Positions 6,139-27,730 of a stretch of 64,000 nt of DNA are shown in pieces. Position 1 is the stretch's first letter. Each line of letters opens with the position of its first letter. The stretch comes from Thermosynechococcaceae cyanobacterium MS004 (GTDB lineage: Bacteria > Cyanobacteriota > Cyanobacteriia > Thermosynechococcales > Thermosynechococcaceae): contig JAKRSB010000113.1 of assembly GCA_022402525.1 (NCBI GenBank), forward strand, positions 32,001 to 96,000, in the 5' to 3' direction. Both the position numbers and the translations under genes were made by a program. The notes beneath the pieces were generated by a model. That model searched no databases and was not told the origin of the DNA. It was given only the letters and a program-made list of their open reading frames with translations.

Positions 6139-8490
6139 CTAGGGCCACATAGGCCGAAGCGCTGCCAGAGCGCCTAGCCGCTGCCCCTTAAGCGCCAGAG
6201 AAAACCCATTCGCCCACCGAGCAAATCCTAATGGCGATCGCGATTGAGATTTCCCAAATACCTGACTTAGAGGTTGGACTAGAGGTAAACCCAGCGCCGT
6301 CTGCTCAAAGTCTCGCGTAAAGCGCTCCTGCCGGAGATAGACAGCACGGGGCGTCAGGGGCGGCAGATTGGCCGCATCGTTAAACCGAGGGTCATAACGC
6401 CAGTTGCGAATCGGCGGGTTATAGATATTGCAGTCTGCCGTTGAGCCACTGCCGCAGAACGCGCCATTCATCTTCCGAGACTTGCCAAGGCTCACCATTG
6501 AGCCTTGATAGGTAAAGACAATGGCGTTTGATCCGTCATTTGCATTGCGCCAGTCCTCATGGAACCGAAAATAGTTATTGACTCCCCCGCTTTCGGAGTT
6601 GATCCCCCCATTCTGTCCACCACGGCTTACGCCACCAGTAATGTCATTTCCACTTAACGCTGCGGCATTGACGGTTGTGGGGGAAGCCGGACGTCCGATG
6701 TTGAGAACAGTAGGCGTACCGTTGAAGGTACTAATGAGCTTGTCACTGGCAGAATCGTCAAGGTTCCAGTTATTAGAAAGGACATTCACTGCATCTGCCA
6801 TGACCGCTGCGGGTTTGCGCTCATCGTCATCAATGTTGCCGTTATTGCAGGTAGCGCCGCAGTTGTAGTCGCCGTGAATATAAACGGCCTGATCCGACAC
6901 CACCGATAAGCCTTTAATGCTTTTACCGCCGACTGGCGTGACGAGATCTCGTCCGTTGTAAATGCGTACCCCATAGTCGTTAATGGTGTTGGAATTGCTG
7001 CCTTTGACCGTCAAAAACCACACCAGTCCACCGTCCGAATCTTCATCCAGTGGCTTACCCATCAGGGTGCTGGCACAGCCCAGAAGTCCTCGTACATCAA
7101 CGTTGAGCATCTGGATGGGGGTATGGTCAAGGCGATCTTTTGCGCCGCGCTTCTCGCGGTAGTTTTTGAAGGTTTTGTCAGAGAACGAAACGACGGGTCT
7201 TTGCAGGGTGGTGTTGGCTGCGATCGCCGTCTTTAGCCCGCGCGTCAGGGTAATGCTGGAACCAGAAATACTGTCAATCACGTAGGCATTGCGATCGCTC
7301 CCCAAGGTGACGATATTGCCTACCGCCAATCCGTTATTGCTGCTGACCTGCACCACGGTTGCACCAGCAGCGGCGGGCTGGGTTAGGGTGGTTTGGGAGA
7401 TCGTGCAGGTTCCGTTTAGCTGGCTGGGCACCGCCACACCATCCTGCCCCACAACCTCAATAGACCCATCGGCCACATTCAGGGCAACTCTGAGGTCAGC
7501 ATTGTCCCAATAAAGCTTGCCAGGAGCCGCATCAAAGCTGTCGGGTTCTGGAATTTCGAGGGGCGTTAACCCCACCTGGATTTGATTATTCCAGGGCGTG
7601 AGGCTGGCGCTTAAAAAGTTCTGACGAGTGCCCGTGCAGGCCAGTTCTCGCTGATTGCTCAAGTCAAATATGCTAGCGGTGCCGGAGCAGACATCGGAAG
7701 ATTTTTGTCCTCGGTACAGACTACCAGCCGCTGTGACCTGCCCCGTAATGGCTAAAGTGTTGCCCACCGCCGCGTTCAGATACAGATCGTTATTGCTGTG
7801 GACGCGACCATTCACCGTCATCGTAGGCGGAATGGTGAAGTCCATATCTTCCTCATAGAAGGCCGCAAACTGGAACAGCGGAATCAGACGGCTCTTAAAC
7901 TGCATCTTGACGATCGCAGTGGGGTTGGGGTTGGTCTGGTTATCCCGCGCCACAGAAATCACGTCATAGCGGTATTCTTGGGCGCTCAGCCCTCCATAGG
8001 TTTCGGTTTGCGGAATAATGACAGAGATCGGATTATTGGGCGCTTCGAGCATAAAGGTAGTAGCACTCTGCGCGCCAATTTGATTGGCCGCTGCATCTTT
8101 GGTGTTGCCAGTCTGAAACGCAGCGGATTCCGTTTGGCAGGCAAAGTCTCCGGTGCCGTCATTGCTGGGATTTGCGTCCAGGCAGGCTTTCCAGTCTCCA
8201 GGAGAGTTTCCAGTGGGGCGGTTGTAGCCTTCAAATTTATTACGAATCTGTTTGGCCCTAAGGTTGAGTCCCGCCTCTGCTGTATAGAATCCCGTATTGC
8301 TTTTGGCTGAAGACATGGAGCTGGCGTTATCCACCTTGCTGGTGATGGCATAGGTAACCAACAGCACAGATAGGATCAGCAGCATCGCAATAGTGACTAC
8401 CAGGGTATAGCCACCCTGGCGCTGAGCACCGCCCTGAAGACGTACCAGGAGCCAAAGTAAGTATCGTTCTGCTGAGCGCTGAGGTTTCAT
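6139..8490 (-). CDS. Large PilX/GspK-like minor pilin (Slr2018/HpsA type)
   Basis: This 783-residue protein has a prepilin-like N-terminus: a basic leader, a probable cleavage site G27/Y28, and a hydrophobic helix YTLVVTIAMLLILSVLLV. The residue at mature position 5 is Val, not the usual Glu, as in GspK-type tip pilins. The large downstream domain carries repeated Asn/Gly-rich segments and several cysteine pairs. The four-gene order (FimT, PilV, PilW, then a large last protein) matches the GspH-I-J-K tip set and, from memory, the Synechocystis pilA9-slr2018 operon; the large protein also resembles HpsA of hormogonium polysaccharide secretion. Role: initiating or capping a pilus or pseudopilus. 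The exact family name is uncertain. It starts at ATG 8490 with a weak ribosome site. Confidence 0.75.
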   Translation of the reverse strand: MKPQRSAERYLLWLLVRLQGGAQRQGGYTLVVTIAMLLILSVLLVTYAITSKVDNASSMSSAKSNTGFYTAEAGLNLRAKQIRNKFEGYNRPTGNSPGDWKACLDANPSNDGTGDFACQTESAAFQTGNTKDAAANQIGAQSATTFMLEAPNNPISVIIPQTETYGGLSAQEYRYDVISVARDNQTNPNPTAIVKMQFKSRLIPLFQFAAFYEEDMDFTIPPTMTVNGRVHSNNDLYLNAAVGNTLAITGQVTAAGSLYRGQKSSDVCSGTASIFDLSNQRELACTGTRQNFLSASLTPWNNQIQVGLTPLEIPEPDSFDAAPGKLYWDNADLRVALNVADGSIEVVGQDGVAVPSQLNGTCTISQTTLTQPAAAGATVVQVSSNNGLAVGNIVTLGSDRNAYVIDSISGSSITLTRGLKTAIAANTTLQRPVVSFSDKTFKNYREKRGAKDRLDHTPIQMLNVDVRGLLGCASTLMGKPLDEDSDGGLVWFLTVKGSNSNTINDYGVRIYNGRDLVTPVGGKSIKGLSVVSDQAVYIHGDYNCGATCNNGNIDDDERKPAAVMADAVNVLSNNWNLDDSASDKLISTFNGTPTVLNIGRPASPTTVNAAALSGNDITGGVSRGGQNGGINSESGGVNNYFRFHEDWRNANDGSNAIVFTYQGSMVSLGKSRKMNGAFCGSGSTADCNIYNPPIRNWRYDPRFNDAANLPPLTPRAVYLRQERFTRDFEQTALGLPLVQPLSQVFGKSQSRSPLGFARWANGFSLALKGQRLGALAALRPMWP

Positions 8491-8507
8491 GATCTTGGAT
8501 CTCGGAA

Positions 8508-8585
8508 AACTAGGGAGTTGAAAGATTGGGGACTTAAAAAAATTGGGGACTTAAAAAAATTGGGGACTTGAAAGACTAGGGTCTC
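8508..8585. repeat. 17-bp tandem repeat between minor pilin genes
   Basis: Units beginning at 8525, 8542 and 8559 repeat ATTGGGGACTTAAAAAA with exact 17-bp spacing; degenerate copies flank them on both sides (ACTAGGGAGTTGAAAG and ACTAGGGTCTCG). The array sits just upstream of the large minor-pilin gene and reaches the 3' end of the PilW-like gene. Confidence 0.85.
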
Positions 8586-9664
8586 GAATTACTATTTCGC
8601 GGGTAAAATTGCGAGGTAAAAGTCTGTAGAGGCGATGGGGCATCAGGCCCCGTATTGGCAGATTGCAAGCGCACCTCGACGGCTTGGGTGGCTTGCCAGT
8701 TTTCAAAGGGTGGGCTACCAGCATTAAATTGATCGACCCAGCCCGATGGGGATAGAACCTTAGCCTGAAAGTCCCGGAGCCGATTGACCACGGCGTAGGT
8801 GACGCGATTTCGCGCATCGGTGAGCTGAAGCTGAAGGGTGCGATCGCCTTTAGCATCGGGGGCAGACAAGGAATACTGGCGCTGCTCTAGGAGATACAGC
8901 TTAGGACGGTTTGCTGCAGGGTAGGCGTTGGCAAAGGTGGTTTGGGCCGGAATAGTTTGAATATTGACCTGATACTGATCCGCATTGCTGGGGTTGGGGC
9001 GTTCCCCGGCGTAGACAAAAAACTCTCCCCGACCATTCACCGGATCATAGAGATAGGCCCAAGCACATTCGCGATCGCTCCCCCCAGCCTGCTGACAGTT
9101 AGGAGGCGTGGTGGTCTGACAGCCATCCACATCATCTTGCTGACAGCGAAAAGTCGTCCATTCTTGGACATCGTCCGGCACCCCATTGGTGTCCCCATCG
9201 CTGTAGATGCAGTTTGGATTATTTTTGTCCGCCACCAGGATTGCGGTAGGCGACCCTGCAGCCATGTCACTGCACACATTCAGCTCCAAAGCAATCAGCT
9301 TCCGCTGCAGTACAAGCCGATCCGGCGCACTAGCTGCCCCATCCAATAAGCTCAAGACAGGTAGCCTTGTCCCCGCCCCAATCTGTTCGCCTGCTTGGCG
9401 AATGTCATTCCCAATCATGTCCATCGCAGCCCGAAGGGTTTGCCCCGTATCGGTGTTGGCCTGCTGATTGAGATGCTGTCGCCGCTGGCTCACAATCACC
9501 CCCAGCGAAACGCTGAGAATGACCGTCGAAATGACCACCGTGACCAGCAGCTCCAGCAGCGAAAGTCCGGCGGGATAACCAGCACGCTGTTCAGCGAGAT
9601 GTCTCGCTGGGTACCTATTGCGTAAAGAAAACGGATACATAGCGCCTAACCCATTACTGGGCAT
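8576..9664 (-). CDS. PilW/GspJ-like minor pilin
   Basis: A prepilin with type III signal: a 33-residue leader ending in Gly, then LSLLELLVTVVISTVILSVSLGVIV with Glu at mature position 5. The rest (about 330 residues) contains many cysteines and a QQANTDTGQTLRAAMDMIGNDIRQAG segment that is common in PilW proteins. Length fits PilW (300-360). It overlaps the PilV-like gene upstream by about 11 bp and is 85 bp before the large PilX-like gene. I chose ATG 9664; an in-frame TTG at 9667 and an ATG at 9640 are alternatives. It probably forms part of the pilus-tip complex. Confidence 0.8.
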   Translation of the reverse strand: MPSNGLGAMYPFSLRNRYPARHLAEQRAGYPAGLSLLELLVTVVISTVILSVSLGVIVSQRRQHLNQQANTDTGQTLRAAMDMIGNDIRQAGEQIGAGTRLPVLSLLDGAASAPDRLVLQRKLIALELNVCSDMAAGSPTAILVADKNNPNCIYSDGDTNGVPDDVQEWTTFRCQQDDVDGCQTTTPPNCQQAGGSDRECAWAYLYDPVNGRGEFFVYAGERPNPSNADQYQVNIQTIPAQTTFANAYPAANRPKLYLLEQRQYSLSAPDAKGDRTLQLQLTDARNRVTYAVVNRLRDFQAKVLSPSGWVDQFNAGSPPFENWQATQAVEVRLQSANTGPDAPSPLQTFTSQFYPRNSNSRP

Positions 9665-10256
9665 CAAATTTTGTATAAATGGTGGAGACTTCGTACACTG
9701 GTGCTGAGCTCACAGTGCCGTTCTCAAATTTTTGAAAAACCGCTACCCGAACGTATCGAGAATTGGTATCGCAGAACGCTGCCTTTTCGCAGTAGTAGAT
9801 CGTGGCGCGATAGTTTTTACCGTAGGCGGCTAGATTATCAAGGGCTTTATTTTGAGGGGCAGGTGTCGTGTTGAAAGCCCCTGAGGAGGGCAGCGTATCC
9901 ACTGCAGGATTTTGGCGAATTTCTTCCATGACCTGTTGCGAGACGGCTACCGCTCCAGTGCGGACTGGATTTTGGAGCGTCTGGAGTCGGTAGGTCATAT
10001 AGACCGGAACCACCCCTGCCATGACGGCCAAAAAGACCAGCAGCGACACCATGGTTTCAATGAGCGTCAGCCCAGCTTCTGGACTGCCAGCATCAGAAGG
10101 TACGCCTCGTGCAATGACTCGTGTGATGACTCGTGCCATGAGAGGATGGGTGTCTAGGCGATTGGAATGTGAGAAAGCACGCGGTGCTAGATGCTGATCC
10201 AAAGGATGGAAGCATAACGTAGGGAGCGGTAAGCCCTTACGGAATTGCCTGGACAT
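9654..10256 (-). CDS. PilV/GspI-like minor pilin with long leader
   Basis: The prepilin motif is EAG/LTLIETMVSLLVFLAVMAG, with Glu at mature position 5, followed by a short globular domain (about 138 residues) with a QQVMEEIRQNP motif typical of PilV/GspI. The start is placed at ATG 10256, which has GGAGG 8 nt upstream and lies inside the end of the FimT-like gene. That gives an unusually long 62-residue leader; an internal ATG at 10139 would give a normal 23-residue leader but lacks a ribosome site. The leader near 10108-10143 is built on a 12-bp tandem repeat. Second gene of the minor-pilin operon. Confidence 0.8.
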   Translation of the reverse strand: MSRQFRKGLPLPTLCFHPLDQHLAPRAFSHSNRLDTHPLMARVITRVIARGVPSDAGSPEAGLTLIETMVSLLVFLAVMAGVVPVYMTYRLQTLQNPVRTGAVAVSQQVMEEIRQNPAVDTLPSSGAFNTTPAPQNKALDNLAAYGKNYRATIYYCEKAAFCDTNSRYVRVAVFQKFENGTVSSAPVYEVSTIYTKFDAQ

Positions 10257-10770
10257 CAATCGCGCCTCCAGGAAAAACCGTAATCTTTTGACCGCTTTGC
10301 TCATCTCTCAGCGTCATTTCTAAATTGTGGCTGGCTAGCCCTCGACTGCTATAGCACAGACTCCAGTTGTCGATAGGCTGCCCCTGTCCATTGAGCATGA
10401 CTTGGGAAACCTGCACGGGGCGATCAACTTGAGCATCTTCCACGGAAAAGCCAGGGTCAGCCGTCCAGGCCGTATCGGAGCAGAGTGCGGCGCGCTCTAC
10501 TCTAAAATCAACGGCTCCAGTAGTGCCAGGAACGGCGCGCAGACGATAGGCAGCGGTGTGAGACATAGCCTTGGCTCGCATCAGCTTTAGGTTGCCCACT
10601 AAACGACTGCTGGTGTCTTTAAGCGGGGCATTTCCAAATCGAATGGTGGGCGCTGCGATCGCGGTCAAAATGCCCAAGACCACAACCGTGACCAGCGCCT
10701 CCGTGAGGGTAAAACCGTGAACGGCCCGATGGCTGGAGCGGGGACGAAGGAGCCGATAAAAATTCATCAT
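10237..10770 (-). CDS. FimT/GspH-like minor pilin
   Basis: First gene of the minor-pilin operon. From ATG 10770 the product has a 19-residue leader ending HG, then FTLTEALVTVVVLGILTAIAAP with Glu at mature position 5, the standard type IV prepilin signal cut by PilD. The region after the helix (SRLVGNLKLMRAKAMSHTAAYRLR) is the conserved GspH/FimT helix-strand. The frame is open up to a TTG at 10860, but that would give a 49-residue leader, so ATG 10770 is preferred. GspH-like pilins often initiate or cap the fibre, and FimT-type pilins in some bacteria bind DNA; the latter is not provable here. Confidence 0.8.
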   Translation of the reverse strand: MMNFYRLLRPRSSHRAVHGFTLTEALVTVVVLGILTAIAAPTIRFGNAPLKDTSSRLVGNLKLMRAKAMSHTAAYRLRAVPGTTGAVDFRVERAALCSDTAWTADPGFSVEDAQVDRPVQVSQVMLNGQGQPIDNWSLCYSSRGLASHNLEMTLRDEQSGQKITVFPGGAIDVQAIP

Positions 10771-11280
10771 GAGAGTCAGGTGAAAAACAAAGGGGTAGGA
10801 TTTCCAAACCGACCTAAATCCGAGTGGAGCAGTTCCAACGGAATTTAGGGCTACAGACAATCTTCGTCACAAGCTCACGCTGCTCAGAAGCGCCTATAAA
10901 CCAAACTTTCTTTTTCGGTAGAAAAATCTACCGCCCCTTCTCTACTGCTTAGAAATCAATCTAGCAAGCAGCCGCAATGTTTAAGTCTGTATCGCCCAAA
11001 AAGTTGATAAAAGTCTTTGATAAGCCGCTTCTCTCTTGAAAGAGATTTTAAAGTCGTGAGATTAAAATCCTGAGAGTAGAATCCAAGCAACTGTGGCTCT
11101 GCCGCTCAGACCGGATAGAACCGATACTGAAAGACCGTTTAAGTCTCTACCAGATGCAGGTAAGCTCATAATAGCCTCGCTCACATAAATCGGCCACTAC
11201 TGGCTACAAGCTTTTATAGAATGATGACCGGGAGTGATGACCGGGAGTGATGGCCAGGAATGGTTGTAATGGAGTCGTCA
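10771..11280. other. Divergent promoter region, minor pilins / fumC
   Basis: About 500 bp between the leftward minor-pilin operon and rightward fumC. It must contain both promoters. At 11222-11260 a 13-bp unit TGATGACCGGGAG is present in two exact copies and one degenerate copy directly ahead of the fumC start. No reading frame, RNA gene or clear regulator site was recognised. Confidence 0.5.
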
Positions 11281-12707: not shown

Positions 12708-13490
12708 ATGATGTTCGGAAGGGTCAATAGTCCTGTCAACTTTCAAACGACAAAGCAAAAGCTGGCGTCTTTAGCAGGACTGATCTGGATGGTGGGGCAA
12801 CCCGCGATCGCCCTACCCTTGGCTCAAATGTCCCTTGCACAAAGAGGCGTGCCGCTAAAACCACCCGTCCTCCCCACACAAACTTCCCAGCCCCAGAATT
12901 TACAGCCCCAGAACTTACAGCCCCAGAATTTACAGCCCCAGAATTTACAGCCCCAGAATTTACAGCCCCAGAATTTACAACCTAAAACGCCCCAGCCCCA
13001 AGCGTCCACAACGGTACAACAGTACCAGGCAGCCGGCGTCACCTTTTCCGCGCCGGCTGGATTTTCACCCCTCCAGCCCCTCGGCGGTGAGACCGTGGGG
13101 ATCATTTTCCCCGCTGCTGCCGCCCAAACCCGCCATGTTTCCGTGCGACTTGCCGACCTTAGCCCCACCGCGCGCGGGATTGCCTCACTTTCTCCCAGGG
13201 ACCTTGCTGAATACGCCCGCTTCAACTTTTTTGGCATTAGCAATCCGCCCCAGCAAACCCAAACCCGGCGCTTTTTAGGGCAGTCCGTGACGGGAGATAT
13301 CCTCATGCAGTCCAATCGGAATGGTGGGACATCCTACATTGAGTTCTATATTGTTCCGCTCTCCGAGCAGCGACAGGTGGCGATCGCTTTTGAAGTCGAC
13401 ACCGAGCTGCCCCTTTCACTGCTAGAAAACACGATCAAAACCGTCACCGAATCCCTGCGAGAGCTGCCCAGCAAGAAAAAACGGCGCTAG
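12708..13490 (+). CDS. Secreted protein with QPQNL pentapeptide repeats, unknown function
   Basis: A 260-residue protein with a likely Sec signal (hydrophobic LASLAGLIWMVGQPAIALPLAQ) and, at residues 61-90, six copies of QPQNL/LQPQN encoded by a 15-bp tandem repeat. The C-terminal 150 residues start VTFSAPAGFSPLQPLGGETVG and look like a compact beta-rich periplasmic domain of the type found in cyanobacterial hypothetical proteins; I do not recognise a named family. The repeat probably acts as an unstructured tether. The start is ATG 12708 after GGGAG. The tail ends in a basic KKKRR. Confidence 0.7.
   Translation: MMFGRVNSPVNFQTTKQKLASLAGLIWMVGQPAIALPLAQMSLAQRGVPLKPPVLPTQTSQPQNLQPQNLQPQNLQPQNLQPQNLQPQNLQPKTPQPQASTTVQQYQAAGVTFSAPAGFSPLQPLGGETVGIIFPAAAAQTRHVSVRLADLSPTARGIASLSPRDLAEYARFNFFGISNPPQQTQTRRFLGQSVTGDILMQSNRNGGTSYIEFYIVPLSEQRQVAIAFEVDTELPLSLLENTIKTVTESLRELPSKKKRR
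12888..12977 (+). repeat. 15-bp in-frame tandem repeat, six copies
   Basis: Six adjacent units of CAGCCCCAGAATTTA (one carries AACTTA) encode the QPQNL repeats. Near-identity between copies implies recent expansion. Confidence 0.95.
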
Positions 13491-15898: not shown

Positions 15899-17356
15899 AT
15901 GCAGACGTTCCATCGCAACGAAACATCCTCCTTAAAGACAGATCGGTTTGAGCTGTGGTATCAGCCTGTCTATGATCTGACCGGCGGACAGGTGATCCAT
16001 AACGAAGTCTTGCTGCGATCGCGGGACCTCGGTGGTCAACTGCAAAGCCCAAAAGATTTTATGCTGTCAATCTTTAGATCTGGCCATGAACCCTGGCTGG
16101 ATCGCTTTGTGTTGGACAGAGCCGTTAAGGTTTTACATGAAAAGCCGCAGTCCGCACTCTCCATCAACCTTTCAAGGGATGCGACCGAAGATTCTCAAAT
16201 TGCGGATTTTATTCATGATTTAGTCTCTGAATTTTGTATTGATCCCAGTCGTCTCCATCTTGAGCTATCCGAAAAAAATATTTCAAAAGATATTAAAAGC
16301 TATATCTCACTCATTCAAGAGCTAAAGCAAATTGGCTGCACGGTGGTCTTGGATAATTTCTCCAATGACTACCTCAGCTTGATGCAGTGGGAATCTTTGG
16401 ATGTAGACTTGATGAAAATTCGCGGCGAGCTGATTCATCAGTCTGTTCATGACCGCAAGGCAAAAATACTGCTGCAATCGATTGTTGAGCTAGGCAGTGC
16501 GCTAGATCAGTTAACAGTTGCCAAGTCTGTAGATGCAGTGAGCACTTCTCTTGCACTCAAACCGTTTCGGTTTGGCTCTGCCCAGGGCTATCACCTGAAA
16601 CGGCCCAGTCCAGATCTTTGCTTTGCAAGTAAGGTTGAGATTCTAGGCGTCTCCATCGATAACTACACGATGGCTGAGATGCTGGATAAGTTAGACAGGG
16701 GGACTGTCTTTACGCCAAACGTAGATCATATTATCAACACGAGAAAGGACAAAGACTTTGGCTTTGCCTATAGCGTTGCGGACTACAAGCTTTGCGATAG
16801 CCAGATTTTATATTTTGCATCCCGATTTTTAGGGCATCCGCTGCGCGAAAAAATTTCGGGTTCTGATTTATTTCCTGCGTTCTATAGGCACCATAAGTAC
16901 GACCAGGACACGACGATTTTTCTGTTGGGGGGGATGGGTGACGTGCCCAAGCAGGCCCAGCGCAATATTAACCAAAAGGTTGGCCGTCCCATCGTAGTAG
17001 ATACCTATTCTCCACCCCTCGGCTTTGATGAAGACGAAGCACTATCCCAGGATATTGTGCAGCGCATTAACCAGTCCGAGGCAACGGTTCTGGCCATTGG
17101 GGTGGGGGCACCCAAGCAGGAGCGATGGATTGCACGGTATCGGGACGAGCTGAAGTCGGTCAAAATTATTTTTGCGATCGGCGCGGCGATCGACTTTGAG
17201 GCTGGGGTGGTGTCACGGGCACCACAGTTGATCAGCGAAATGGGCTGTGAGTGGCTGTATCGTTTGGCGATGGAGCCAAAACGCCTTTGGAAACGCTATC
17301 TCATTAACGACATTCCTTTTGTATGGCTTCTGCTTAAGCAAAAGTTTTTGGGCTGA
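15899..17356 (+). CDS. Degenerate EAL domain fused to WecG/TagA/CpsF glycosyltransferase
   Basis: A 485-residue two-domain protein. Residues 18-240 are an EAL c-di-GMP domain: E36-V-L-L-R40 in place of EALLR, N90, E122, D152, K173 and Q229 are kept, but the second Asp of the DDF motif is N153, the loop after it is altered, and the Glu of AEGVE is K209. This suggests binding or sensing, not hydrolysis. Residues 246-480 are a WecG/TagA/CpsF enzyme: TPNVDH, CDSQ (candidate catalytic Asp300), GSDLF, GVGAPKQERW, GAAIDFEAGVVSRAP and the membrane-associating tail EWLYRLAMEPKRLWKRYL. This family transfers ManNAc(A)-type sugars to lipid-linked intermediates at the membrane. The pairing suggests surface-polysaccharide synthesis gated by c-di-GMP (inference). 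No neighbouring polysaccharide genes. Confidence 0.88.
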   Translation: MQTFHRNETSSLKTDRFELWYQPVYDLTGGQVIHNEVLLRSRDLGGQLQSPKDFMLSIFRSGHEPWLDRFVLDRAVKVLHEKPQSALSINLSRDATEDSQIADFIHDLVSEFCIDPSRLHLELSEKNISKDIKSYISLIQELKQIGCTVVLDNFSNDYLSLMQWESLDVDLMKIRGELIHQSVHDRKAKILLQSIVELGSALDQLTVAKSVDAVSTSLALKPFRFGSAQGYHLKRPSPDLCFASKVEILGVSIDNYTMAEMLDKLDRGTVFTPNVDHIINTRKDKDFGFAYSVADYKLCDSQILYFASRFLGHPLREKISGSDLFPAFYRHHKYDQDTTIFLLGGMGDVPKQAQRNINQKVGRPIVVDTYSPPLGFDEDEALSQDIVQRINQSEATVLAIGVGAPKQERWIARYRDELKSVKIIFAIGAAIDFEAGVVSRAPQLISEMGCEWLYRLAMEPKRLWKRYLINDIPFVWLLLKQKFLG

Positions 17357-27073: not shown

Positions 27074-27370
27074 TTAATCGGAAAACAGCGATCGGAAATC
27101 CTGATAACCACTGACAACCCGAACAATCTCAATAGAGAAGTCGGTCACAGTATAGAAAATGACGTAGTTATCCAATGGAACACCACGCAATTGTTTTGAA
27201 AGTTCGGGATAATTTCGCCCCATCCTGGGGAAATTAGCTATGTATCTGCATTTTGTTTCAAATTTGGCTGTGAATTGTTCTCCAGCATCTATATTTTTCT
27301 CTAAAAAATAATCGAGAATTTTCACTAAATCTTTGCTTGCAATGGGGGAAATAATGCAGCGACGACTCAT
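27074..27370 (-). CDS. RelE/ParE family toxin
   Basis: A 98-residue basic protein with the RelE/ParE fold: the N-terminal strand RRCIISPIASKDLVKILDYF, then RMGRNYPELSKQLRGVPLDNYVIFYTV and a C-terminal IEIVRVVSGYQDF. The VIFYTV and RVVSG strands are typical of ParE-type toxins, which poison DNA gyrase, but RelE-like mRNA cleavage cannot be excluded. It overlaps the antitoxin gene by 4 bp. It is bounded by direct repeats, which suggests acquisition as a cassette. Confidence 0.88.
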   Translation of the reverse strand: MSRRCIISPIASKDLVKILDYFLEKNIDAGEQFTAKFETKCRYIANFPRMGRNYPELSKQLRGVPLDNYVIFYTVTDFSIEIVRVVSGYQDFRSLFSD

Positions 27371-27633
27371 GGTGTCTGTTTGCGTGCATTTTGAATTTTG
27401 TCTCTAAGTTGTTTCATCACAACATCTAGCTCAATGCCTTCGCCACGCTCTAGCTCCTGTAGACCAACCTCGATTTTCTCTTGCGTTTCGTTGACCCACT
27501 GCTCGTACTGAACGCCGTACTCTTCAAGTAAGTTCAGCGCTGCTTGAATCACGTCTTCTGATTTGTGGTAGCGCCCAGTGGTTAATAGATTTTGAACCAA
27601 CTGCTCTTGTTCGGATGTCAGGGTAATGCTCAT
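27367..27633 (-). CDS. ParD/CopG-type antitoxin
   Basis: An 88-residue antitoxin from ATG 27633: the N-terminal ribbon-helix-helix MSITLTSEQEQLVQNLLTTGRYHKSEDVIQAALNLLEE binds DNA and represses the operon, and the charged C-terminal part wraps the toxin. The SxDVIQAALNLLEE helix is typical of ParD. The open frame continues to a codon at 27714, but the ParD family starts at MSITL. The promoter should lie within the right-hand direct repeat (27645-27730). Confidence 0.88.
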   Translation of the reverse strand: MSITLTSEQEQLVQNLLTTGRYHKSEDVIQAALNLLEEYGVQYEQWVNETQEKIEVGLQELERGEGIELDVVMKQLRDKIQNARKQTP

Positions 27634-27644
27634 AATGCTTGACG

Positions 27645-27730
27645 GAGTATAGCTAACCGAAACGCAGGCTTTATCTAAGCCTATGCTAACGCGATCACCT
27701 CCCTTACAGTCCATTTTTGAAGGGATGGCA
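27645..27730 (+). repeat. Direct repeat flanking the toxin-antitoxin pair, right copy
   Basis: These 86 bp match 26946-27030 in the same orientation. The copy begins 11 bp upstream of the antitoxin start and is likely to carry its promoter and operator. Confidence 0.9.

Follow-up and report, generated by a model that had tools for sequence, protein, structure and literature searches.

The fusion gene and its neighbourhood

The window analysed here is a stretch of 64,000 nucleotides from the genome of Thermosynechococcaceae cyanobacterium MS004. On its forward strand, positions 15899..17356 hold one uninterrupted frame of 485 codons, from ATG to stop, whose product joins an EAL domain to a transferase of the WecG/TagA/CpsF family (GT26). 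Pfam places the EAL domain (PF00563, 3.6e-42) at residues 11-236 (15929..16606, + strand), with 144.8 bits for a cut-off of 31.3, and Glyco_tran_WecG (PF03808, 6.8e-52) at residues 294-467, with 176.1 bits for a cut-off of 27.4. The transferase as a whole covers residues 245-485 (16631..17353, + strand) and matches TagA (7mpk) with a phmmer value of 1.4e-31. Among NCBIfam models, TIGR00696 reached 113.2 bits (cut-off 69), and the EpsA and TarA models also matched, both under their strict cut-offs. A sequence-only reading of this DNA had described a single stop-free frame of 485 residues combining an EAL domain with a sugar transferase, and the open reading frame and Pfam matches confirm it.

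An AlphaFold2 model built from the family alignment had a mean pLDDT of 85 and a pTM of 0.81, the C-terminal tail and the first residues being its weakest parts. Its EAL half matches the structures of FimX, MorA, PdeA and LapD with Z scores of 25-29, the receptors FimX (Z 28) and LapD (Z 25) fitting as well as active enzymes do. The transferase half matches TagA with a Z score of 25.7 and an rmsd of 1.7 over 191 residues.

The fusion gene sits between mutL and a PD-(D/E)XK nuclease gene, an order common only within the genus, and is not part of a polysaccharide cluster in the window. Four pseudopilin-like genes form a cluster at 6139-10860 (− strand); two of them encode an N-terminal methylation motif (N_methyl), one just under the cut-off. 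Pilus genes 5-10 kb away had been taken as a sign that the fusion takes part in a sessile/motile decision, a proposal that found no support. The genes fumC and mutL intervene between cluster and fusion, and outside the genus, loci read with at most 6 kb of flank showed no homologues of these pilin-like genes, of fumC or of mutL in the vicinity of the fusion. Pilus genes were not near the fusion in the relatives read, and we rejected this neighbourhood as evidence.

No Rfam match to a riboswitch or other known RNA was obtained within the window. The host genome contains about 16 GGDEF loci and 14 EAL loci, the fusion counted, and c-di-GMP should therefore be available in the host.

Distribution of the fusion in cyanobacteria

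The fusion is real, conserved and restricted to one cyanobacterial family. It was found in 11 of the 29 genomes of the window's family, Thermosynechococcaceae, in five genera: two genomes in the window's own genus (g1), six in g11, and one each in g6, g8 and g9. Besides the window's own copy, these comprise eight full-length open copies, one cut by a contig end, and L016, whose frame is broken near the C-terminus; identity to the window copy ranges from 43 to 67%. Named carriers are Thermosynechococcus sp. WC_1 (a MAG), Petrachloros mirabilis ULC683 and Lyngbya confervoides BDU141951; the others include several Acaryochloris or Acaryochloridaceae MAGs and one uncultured cyanobacterium. The distribution is patchy within the family, all 11 genomes of genus g5 being devoid of the fusion.

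Among 390 genomes of the class, no EAL-transferase fusion was found in other families: matches spanning both domains came from the window's family only, and headed the list. The transferase devoid of an EAL domain is common in other families, at 50-60% identity. Searching the whole of GTDB with the EAL part brought up nine members of the family and a single weak match that is unrelated; such a search would overlook an independent EAL-WecG fusion built on another type of EAL domain, the in-depth survey being that of cyanobacteria. Occurrence in 11 genomes rules out a one-off fusion or a rare assembly artefact, the case in which the sequence-only reading would have had to be abandoned. We found no description of an EAL-WecG fusion in the literature, but the collection searched was limited, so that this absence proves little.

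The transferase half

Residues whose roles are described for TagA (PMC6493773) were located by alignment to 7mpk. T272-P-N274 (16712..16720, + strand) contains the equivalents of TagA T37 and N39, D300 (16796..16798, + strand) is that of the catalytic base D65 (PMC6493773), and Q407 and E408 correspond to Q167 and E168. The C-terminal appendage (17225..17353, + strand) is modelled as helices 443-448, 451-458 and 460-484, with a pLDDT of about 58-78, and carries R455, R462 and R466 at the places of TagA R214, R221 and R224. The protein resembles TagA of Thermoanaerobacter italicus (7mpk, 5wb4) in its fold, in T37, N39, D65, Q167 and E168, and in the three appendage arginines (PMC6493773). It differs in that TagA has no regulatory domain, has R83 where Lys318 is found here, and serves teichoic acid synthesis. 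Because the active-site residues are complete and the fold matches, we infer that the C-terminal half moves a nucleotide-activated sugar onto a membrane lipid-linked sugar, like TagA, WecG and probably HfsJ.

Every TagA residue checked is kept in 7 of the 11 fusions, window included, with K or R at the R83 site. L015 has A, N and Q at T272, D300 and R462, and L017 and L018 show several transferase active-site changes. In L015-L018 the transferase half is degraded, by loss of active-site residues or of the C-terminus, and the EAL pocket is intact; the EAL-transferase pair is therefore not always an enzyme.

One might regard the fusion as a relic in the course of being lost, with little importance for either half: L015, L017 and L018 lack transferase active-site residues, L016 ends early, and the distribution is patchy, with 11 g5 genomes devoid of it. 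Against this, seven copies, the window's among them, keep all the transferase residues checked, and in close pairs dN is far below dS in both halves, dS being saturated. We hold such a leftover to be most improbable.

Catalytic positions and nucleotide pocket of the EAL half

In RocR, the metal ligands are E175, N233, E265, D295, D296 and E352, and the substrate is contacted by Q161 and R179 (PMC7911125). The equivalents in the window protein are E36, N90, E122, D152, N153 and K209 for the former, Q22 and R40 for the latter. The ExLxR ligand motif, E36-V-L-L-R40 (16004..16018, + strand), has E36 and R40 invariant in all 11 copies (RocR E175 and R179, PMC7911125). The RocR-type set of metal ligands is incomplete, two of the six being substituted: N153 (16355..16357, + strand) stands for the second Asp of DDF (D296), and K209 (16523..16525, + strand) for the Glu of AEGVE (E352 in RocR, E653 in FimX, E617 in LapD). 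These two replacements, as well as the retention of E36, N90, E122, D152, K173 and Q229, had all been named correctly from the sequence, and the latter six are invariant in the fusion copies.

When the two altered sites were mapped over the fusions, position 209 differed from the RocR ligand in 11 of 11 (K in eight, T in three) and position 153 in 10 of 11 (N in nine, G in one, the last having D). Since N153 and K209 replace metal ligands of active EAL enzymes, c-di-GMP hydrolysis by the fusion's EAL domain is probably lost, as had been claimed. An EAL domain that has remained a working c-di-GMP phosphodiesterase, kept beside the transferase so as to couple local removal of the messenger with sugar transfer, would agree with the invariance of E36, N90, E122, D152, K173 and Q229, but two of the six RocR metal ligands are substituted in the window copy, one of them by a positive charge, and we consider this reading very improbable.

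Invariant positions in the 11 copies amount to 52 of 221 over the EAL domain. They include 12 of the 15 FimX c-di-GMP-contact positions (p 2.5e-6; list from PMC7288161) and 15 of the 19 known pocket positions taken together (p 1.2e-7), the FimX and LapD positions having been assigned by counting residues from the ends of the matched segments (4fok, i.e. FimX, 446-689 on 8-245; LapD 418-648 on 10-240, which places K209 on E617) and not read off a residue-by-residue alignment with FimX. Around K209, the printed alignments with RbdA and with MorA give the same assignment. Other FimX contacts are of a different kind in the fusion, namely S210, Y231, P236 and the variable S50. On the alignment of the 11 copies, loss of the catalytic residues is a fixed feature of the fusions, and the remaining pocket is conserved. 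This conservation could in part be left over from an enzyme ancestry, or serve folding.

FimX and LapD are degenerate EAL receptors (PMC7288161, PMC3032553, PMC3032545). The window protein would share with them an EAL fold devoid of phosphodiesterase activity, as predicted here, and part of the pocket (the Q, R, P, M, D, Q and G contacts of FimX). Unlike the window protein, which has Lys at this place, both keep the AEGVE Glu (E653, E617), and neither is fused to a polysaccharide-synthesis enzyme. This Glu contacts the ligand in FimX (PMC7288161), and its replacement in LapD (E617A) severely reduces c-di-GMP binding (PMC3032545); among the arguments against a c-di-GMP receptor here, this one weighs most. 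The suggestion that ligand binding may remain is consequently less safe than it had seemed: it draws support from the pocket, conserved at 15 of 19 positions, and loses some from the Lys at the LapD E617 site. An EAL pocket with K209 may either tolerate the Lys, or take another ligand, or bind none.

If it bound none, the EAL half would be a pseudoenzyme serving the transferase as a dimerisation or partner-docking scaffold, in the manner of YdiV, an EAL-fold protein that acts via protein contact (PMC3510510). Both the replacement by K209 of a Glu needed for c-di-GMP binding in LapD (PMC3032545) and the freedom of position 153 (N, D or G) speak for such a scaffold. On the other side, few parts of the domain are as conserved as the pocket, with polar residues such as Q22, R40, D68, N90, E122, K173 and Q229, which a pure scaffold would not need, and this pocket is nearly unchanged in free single-domain relatives. 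We regard the scaffold as possible, but rather unlikely.

Free EAL relatives and their loci

The free single-domain EAL relatives have a C-terminal hydrophobic segment and nearly the same pocket as the fusions. In 13 of the 15 (L126-L128, L130-L139), the 209 site is occupied by Lys; the other two, L129 and L140, have Glu there and keep the full DD + E set. For these reasons the change from Glu to Lys does not look like random decay.

A Lys209 EAL subfamily might bind pGpG, c-di-AMP or a mixed cyclic dinucleotide, and couple that ligand to the start of polysaccharide synthesis. The conserved passage from Glu to Lys, seen in eight of the 11 fusions and in 13 of the 15 free relatives, with the rest of the pocket nearly intact, speaks for this. 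The literature that we searched, however, yielded no case of an EAL protein that had switched ligand in this way, and three fusions have Thr. Binding of another dinucleotide thus appears improbable, and we think it quite improbable that a conserved Glu-to-Lys EAL subfamily has turned into a receptor for a dinucleotide other than c-di-GMP and, joined to a TagA-type enzyme, makes the start of a surface polysaccharide depend on that signal.

The genes of the two free EAL relatives that retain intact motifs are found in polysaccharide loci, L158 and L159, where each adjoins a Poly_export/SLBB (Wza-type) gene. L158 has an additional gene with a Wzy_C match near the cut-off. L159 also has a gene for a GT2 protein and, on the upstream side, one for an enzyme whose MshEN-like N-terminus is joined to a Bac_transf domain, the class that makes the first lipid-linked sugar. 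Positions 3721-9944 of L159 thus form a polysaccharide locus in which a Wza-type export gene accompanies genes for an MshEN-like Bac_transf enzyme and an intact-motif EAL protein. A Wzy_C ligase gene adjoins the EAL gene in L156. From these gene neighbourhoods, the EAL lineage is tied to polysaccharide export, though not universally, since the neighbours of the EAL gene in L160-L162 look unrelated to polysaccharide.

MshEN-like fusions of the same transferase subfamily

Relatives of the transferase half carry other domains. An MshEN-like domain lies directly N-terminal to the transferase in L068 and L080-L082, an MshEN-like domain and a Bac_transf domain precede it in L038-L040, L072 and L093-L096, and one or two MshEN-like units follow it in L041-L046 and L098-L100. 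A profile of these domains matched in the PDB the receptor domains of PilF (1.3e-21), PilB (2e-11) and MshE (6e-9); Pfam scans of the extensions did not report MshEN, and the link rests on this profile search. MshEN is a proven c-di-GMP receptor (PMC5013675). Its motif consists of two 24-residue units, RLGxx(LVI)(LVI)xxG(LVI)(LVI)xxxxLxxxLxxQ, with a 5-residue spacer. The N-terminal MshEN-like copies keep the Leu, the first Gly and the Gln of the motif, with a spacer of 10 and not 5, and in most of the relatives' MshEN-like domains one or both of its stacking Arg are missing. Binding of c-di-GMP by these domains is therefore predicted at most.

L038-L040, L072 and L093-L096 would unite, in a single polypeptide, a homologue of a c-di-GMP receptor with the enzymes for two consecutive lipid-linked steps. 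Related transferases with a helical N-terminal extension of the LYRKFRRAALESTARELQKQ type were also seen (L070, L071, L073, L097, L101-L104).

In a careful tree the EAL fusions form a single clade (100/99), and the MshEN-like units at the C-terminus are dispersed over the tree, with six changes, deep branches being weak. A quick tree placed the EAL clade beside the MshEN-Bac_transf-GT proteins of the family, as if MshEN-Bac_transf had been swapped for EAL within the family. The careful tree leaves the position of the EAL clade among the transferases without firm support and an AU test rejects neither grouping (p 0.48 and 0.11), for which reasons we do not claim such a swap.

Proposed control of the transferase by its EAL half

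Control of polysaccharides by c-di-GMP is known mostly at polymerases (cellulose, alginate, Pel), via PilZ, GGDEF-like or MshEN receptors. The fusion suggests that the building of a surface polysaccharide may be controlled directly at the transferase. A c-di-GMP-type control module on a polysaccharide glycosyltransferase is already known in kind; the pairing of EAL with GT26 appears to be new. Sequence comparison added two findings to the sequence-only reading: members of the same transferase subfamily in other cyanobacteria are fused to MshEN-like domains, and the free EAL relatives with intact motifs lie in polysaccharide-export loci. The cyanobacterial pattern, with a dead EAL or an MshEN-like domain on one transferase subfamily, points to the early lipid-linked step as the controlled one.

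Two proteins offer precedents. HfsJ of Caulobacter crescentus, a holdfast protein of the WecG/TagA family (PMC3900383), has been reported as an enzyme that c-di-GMP activates allosterically (PMC8846402, PMC6372794), and HfiA inhibits it via residues near its C-terminus (PMC3900383). Like the role proposed here for the window protein, that of HfsJ is the role of a membrane-associated WecG/TagA-family transferase at which a surface polysaccharide is controlled, with reported activation by c-di-GMP; in contrast to the window protein with its fused EAL domain, HfsJ is described without a fused receptor, and has a separate inhibitor. NfrB of E. coli, a GT2-MshEN protein, needs c-di-GMP binding for full activity (PMC8669469). 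It too is a glycosyltransferase with a fused c-di-GMP receptor domain, binding by the EAL domain being predicted from sequence in our case, but it joins GT2 to MshEN where the window protein joins GT26 to EAL. The MshEN-like fusions and, by analogy, the reported activation of HfsJ lend independent support to the c-di-GMP control proposed in the sequence-only reading. This comparative pattern lifts the idea above a guess, and K209 holds it at about an even chance.

The reading that we prefer, and judge slightly more probable than its negation, is that a phosphodiesterase-dead EAL receptor for a dinucleotide gates early lipid-linked sugar transfer in the synthesis of a surface polysaccharide. 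The protein would be a regulated early-step glycosyltransferase for an undecaprenyl-linked surface polysaccharide. Its EAL half, no longer hydrolytic, may hold a dinucleotide, most likely c-di-GMP, in the old substrate pocket, as the conservation of this pocket suggests. Occupancy of the pocket would change how the EAL half oligomerises or how it touches the transferase, and the transferase would thereby pass from an inactive form to an active one docked at the membrane, or back. TagA is described as alternating between an inactive dimer and an active monomer, which binds the membrane and is completed by the C-terminal appendage (PMC6493773). In the simplest model the EAL half, either ligand-bound or free, would shift a TagA-like balance between dimer and monomer; an attached EAL dimer had been suggested as a possible switch in the sequence-only reading. 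As to the direction of control, activation is favoured by the HfsJ and NfrB precedents.

If gating by a dead EAL receptor is true, it would provide a testable switch for exopolysaccharide production and sessile life in cyanobacteria. It would also broaden what is known from HfsJ to include enzymes that have a receptor domain of their own, and supply a natural fusion for asking how TagA-type enzymes get turned on.

Other features of the window

Two further features of the window were noted. Positions 12888-13000 contain a 15-base tandem repeat of about six copies, which encodes a QPQNL unit within a 260-residue protein (12708-13490). At 27074-27714 (− strand) lie genes for a ParE-type toxin (PF05016, 6.4e-16) and a ParD-type antitoxin (PF03693, 6.1e-4, just under the cut-off).
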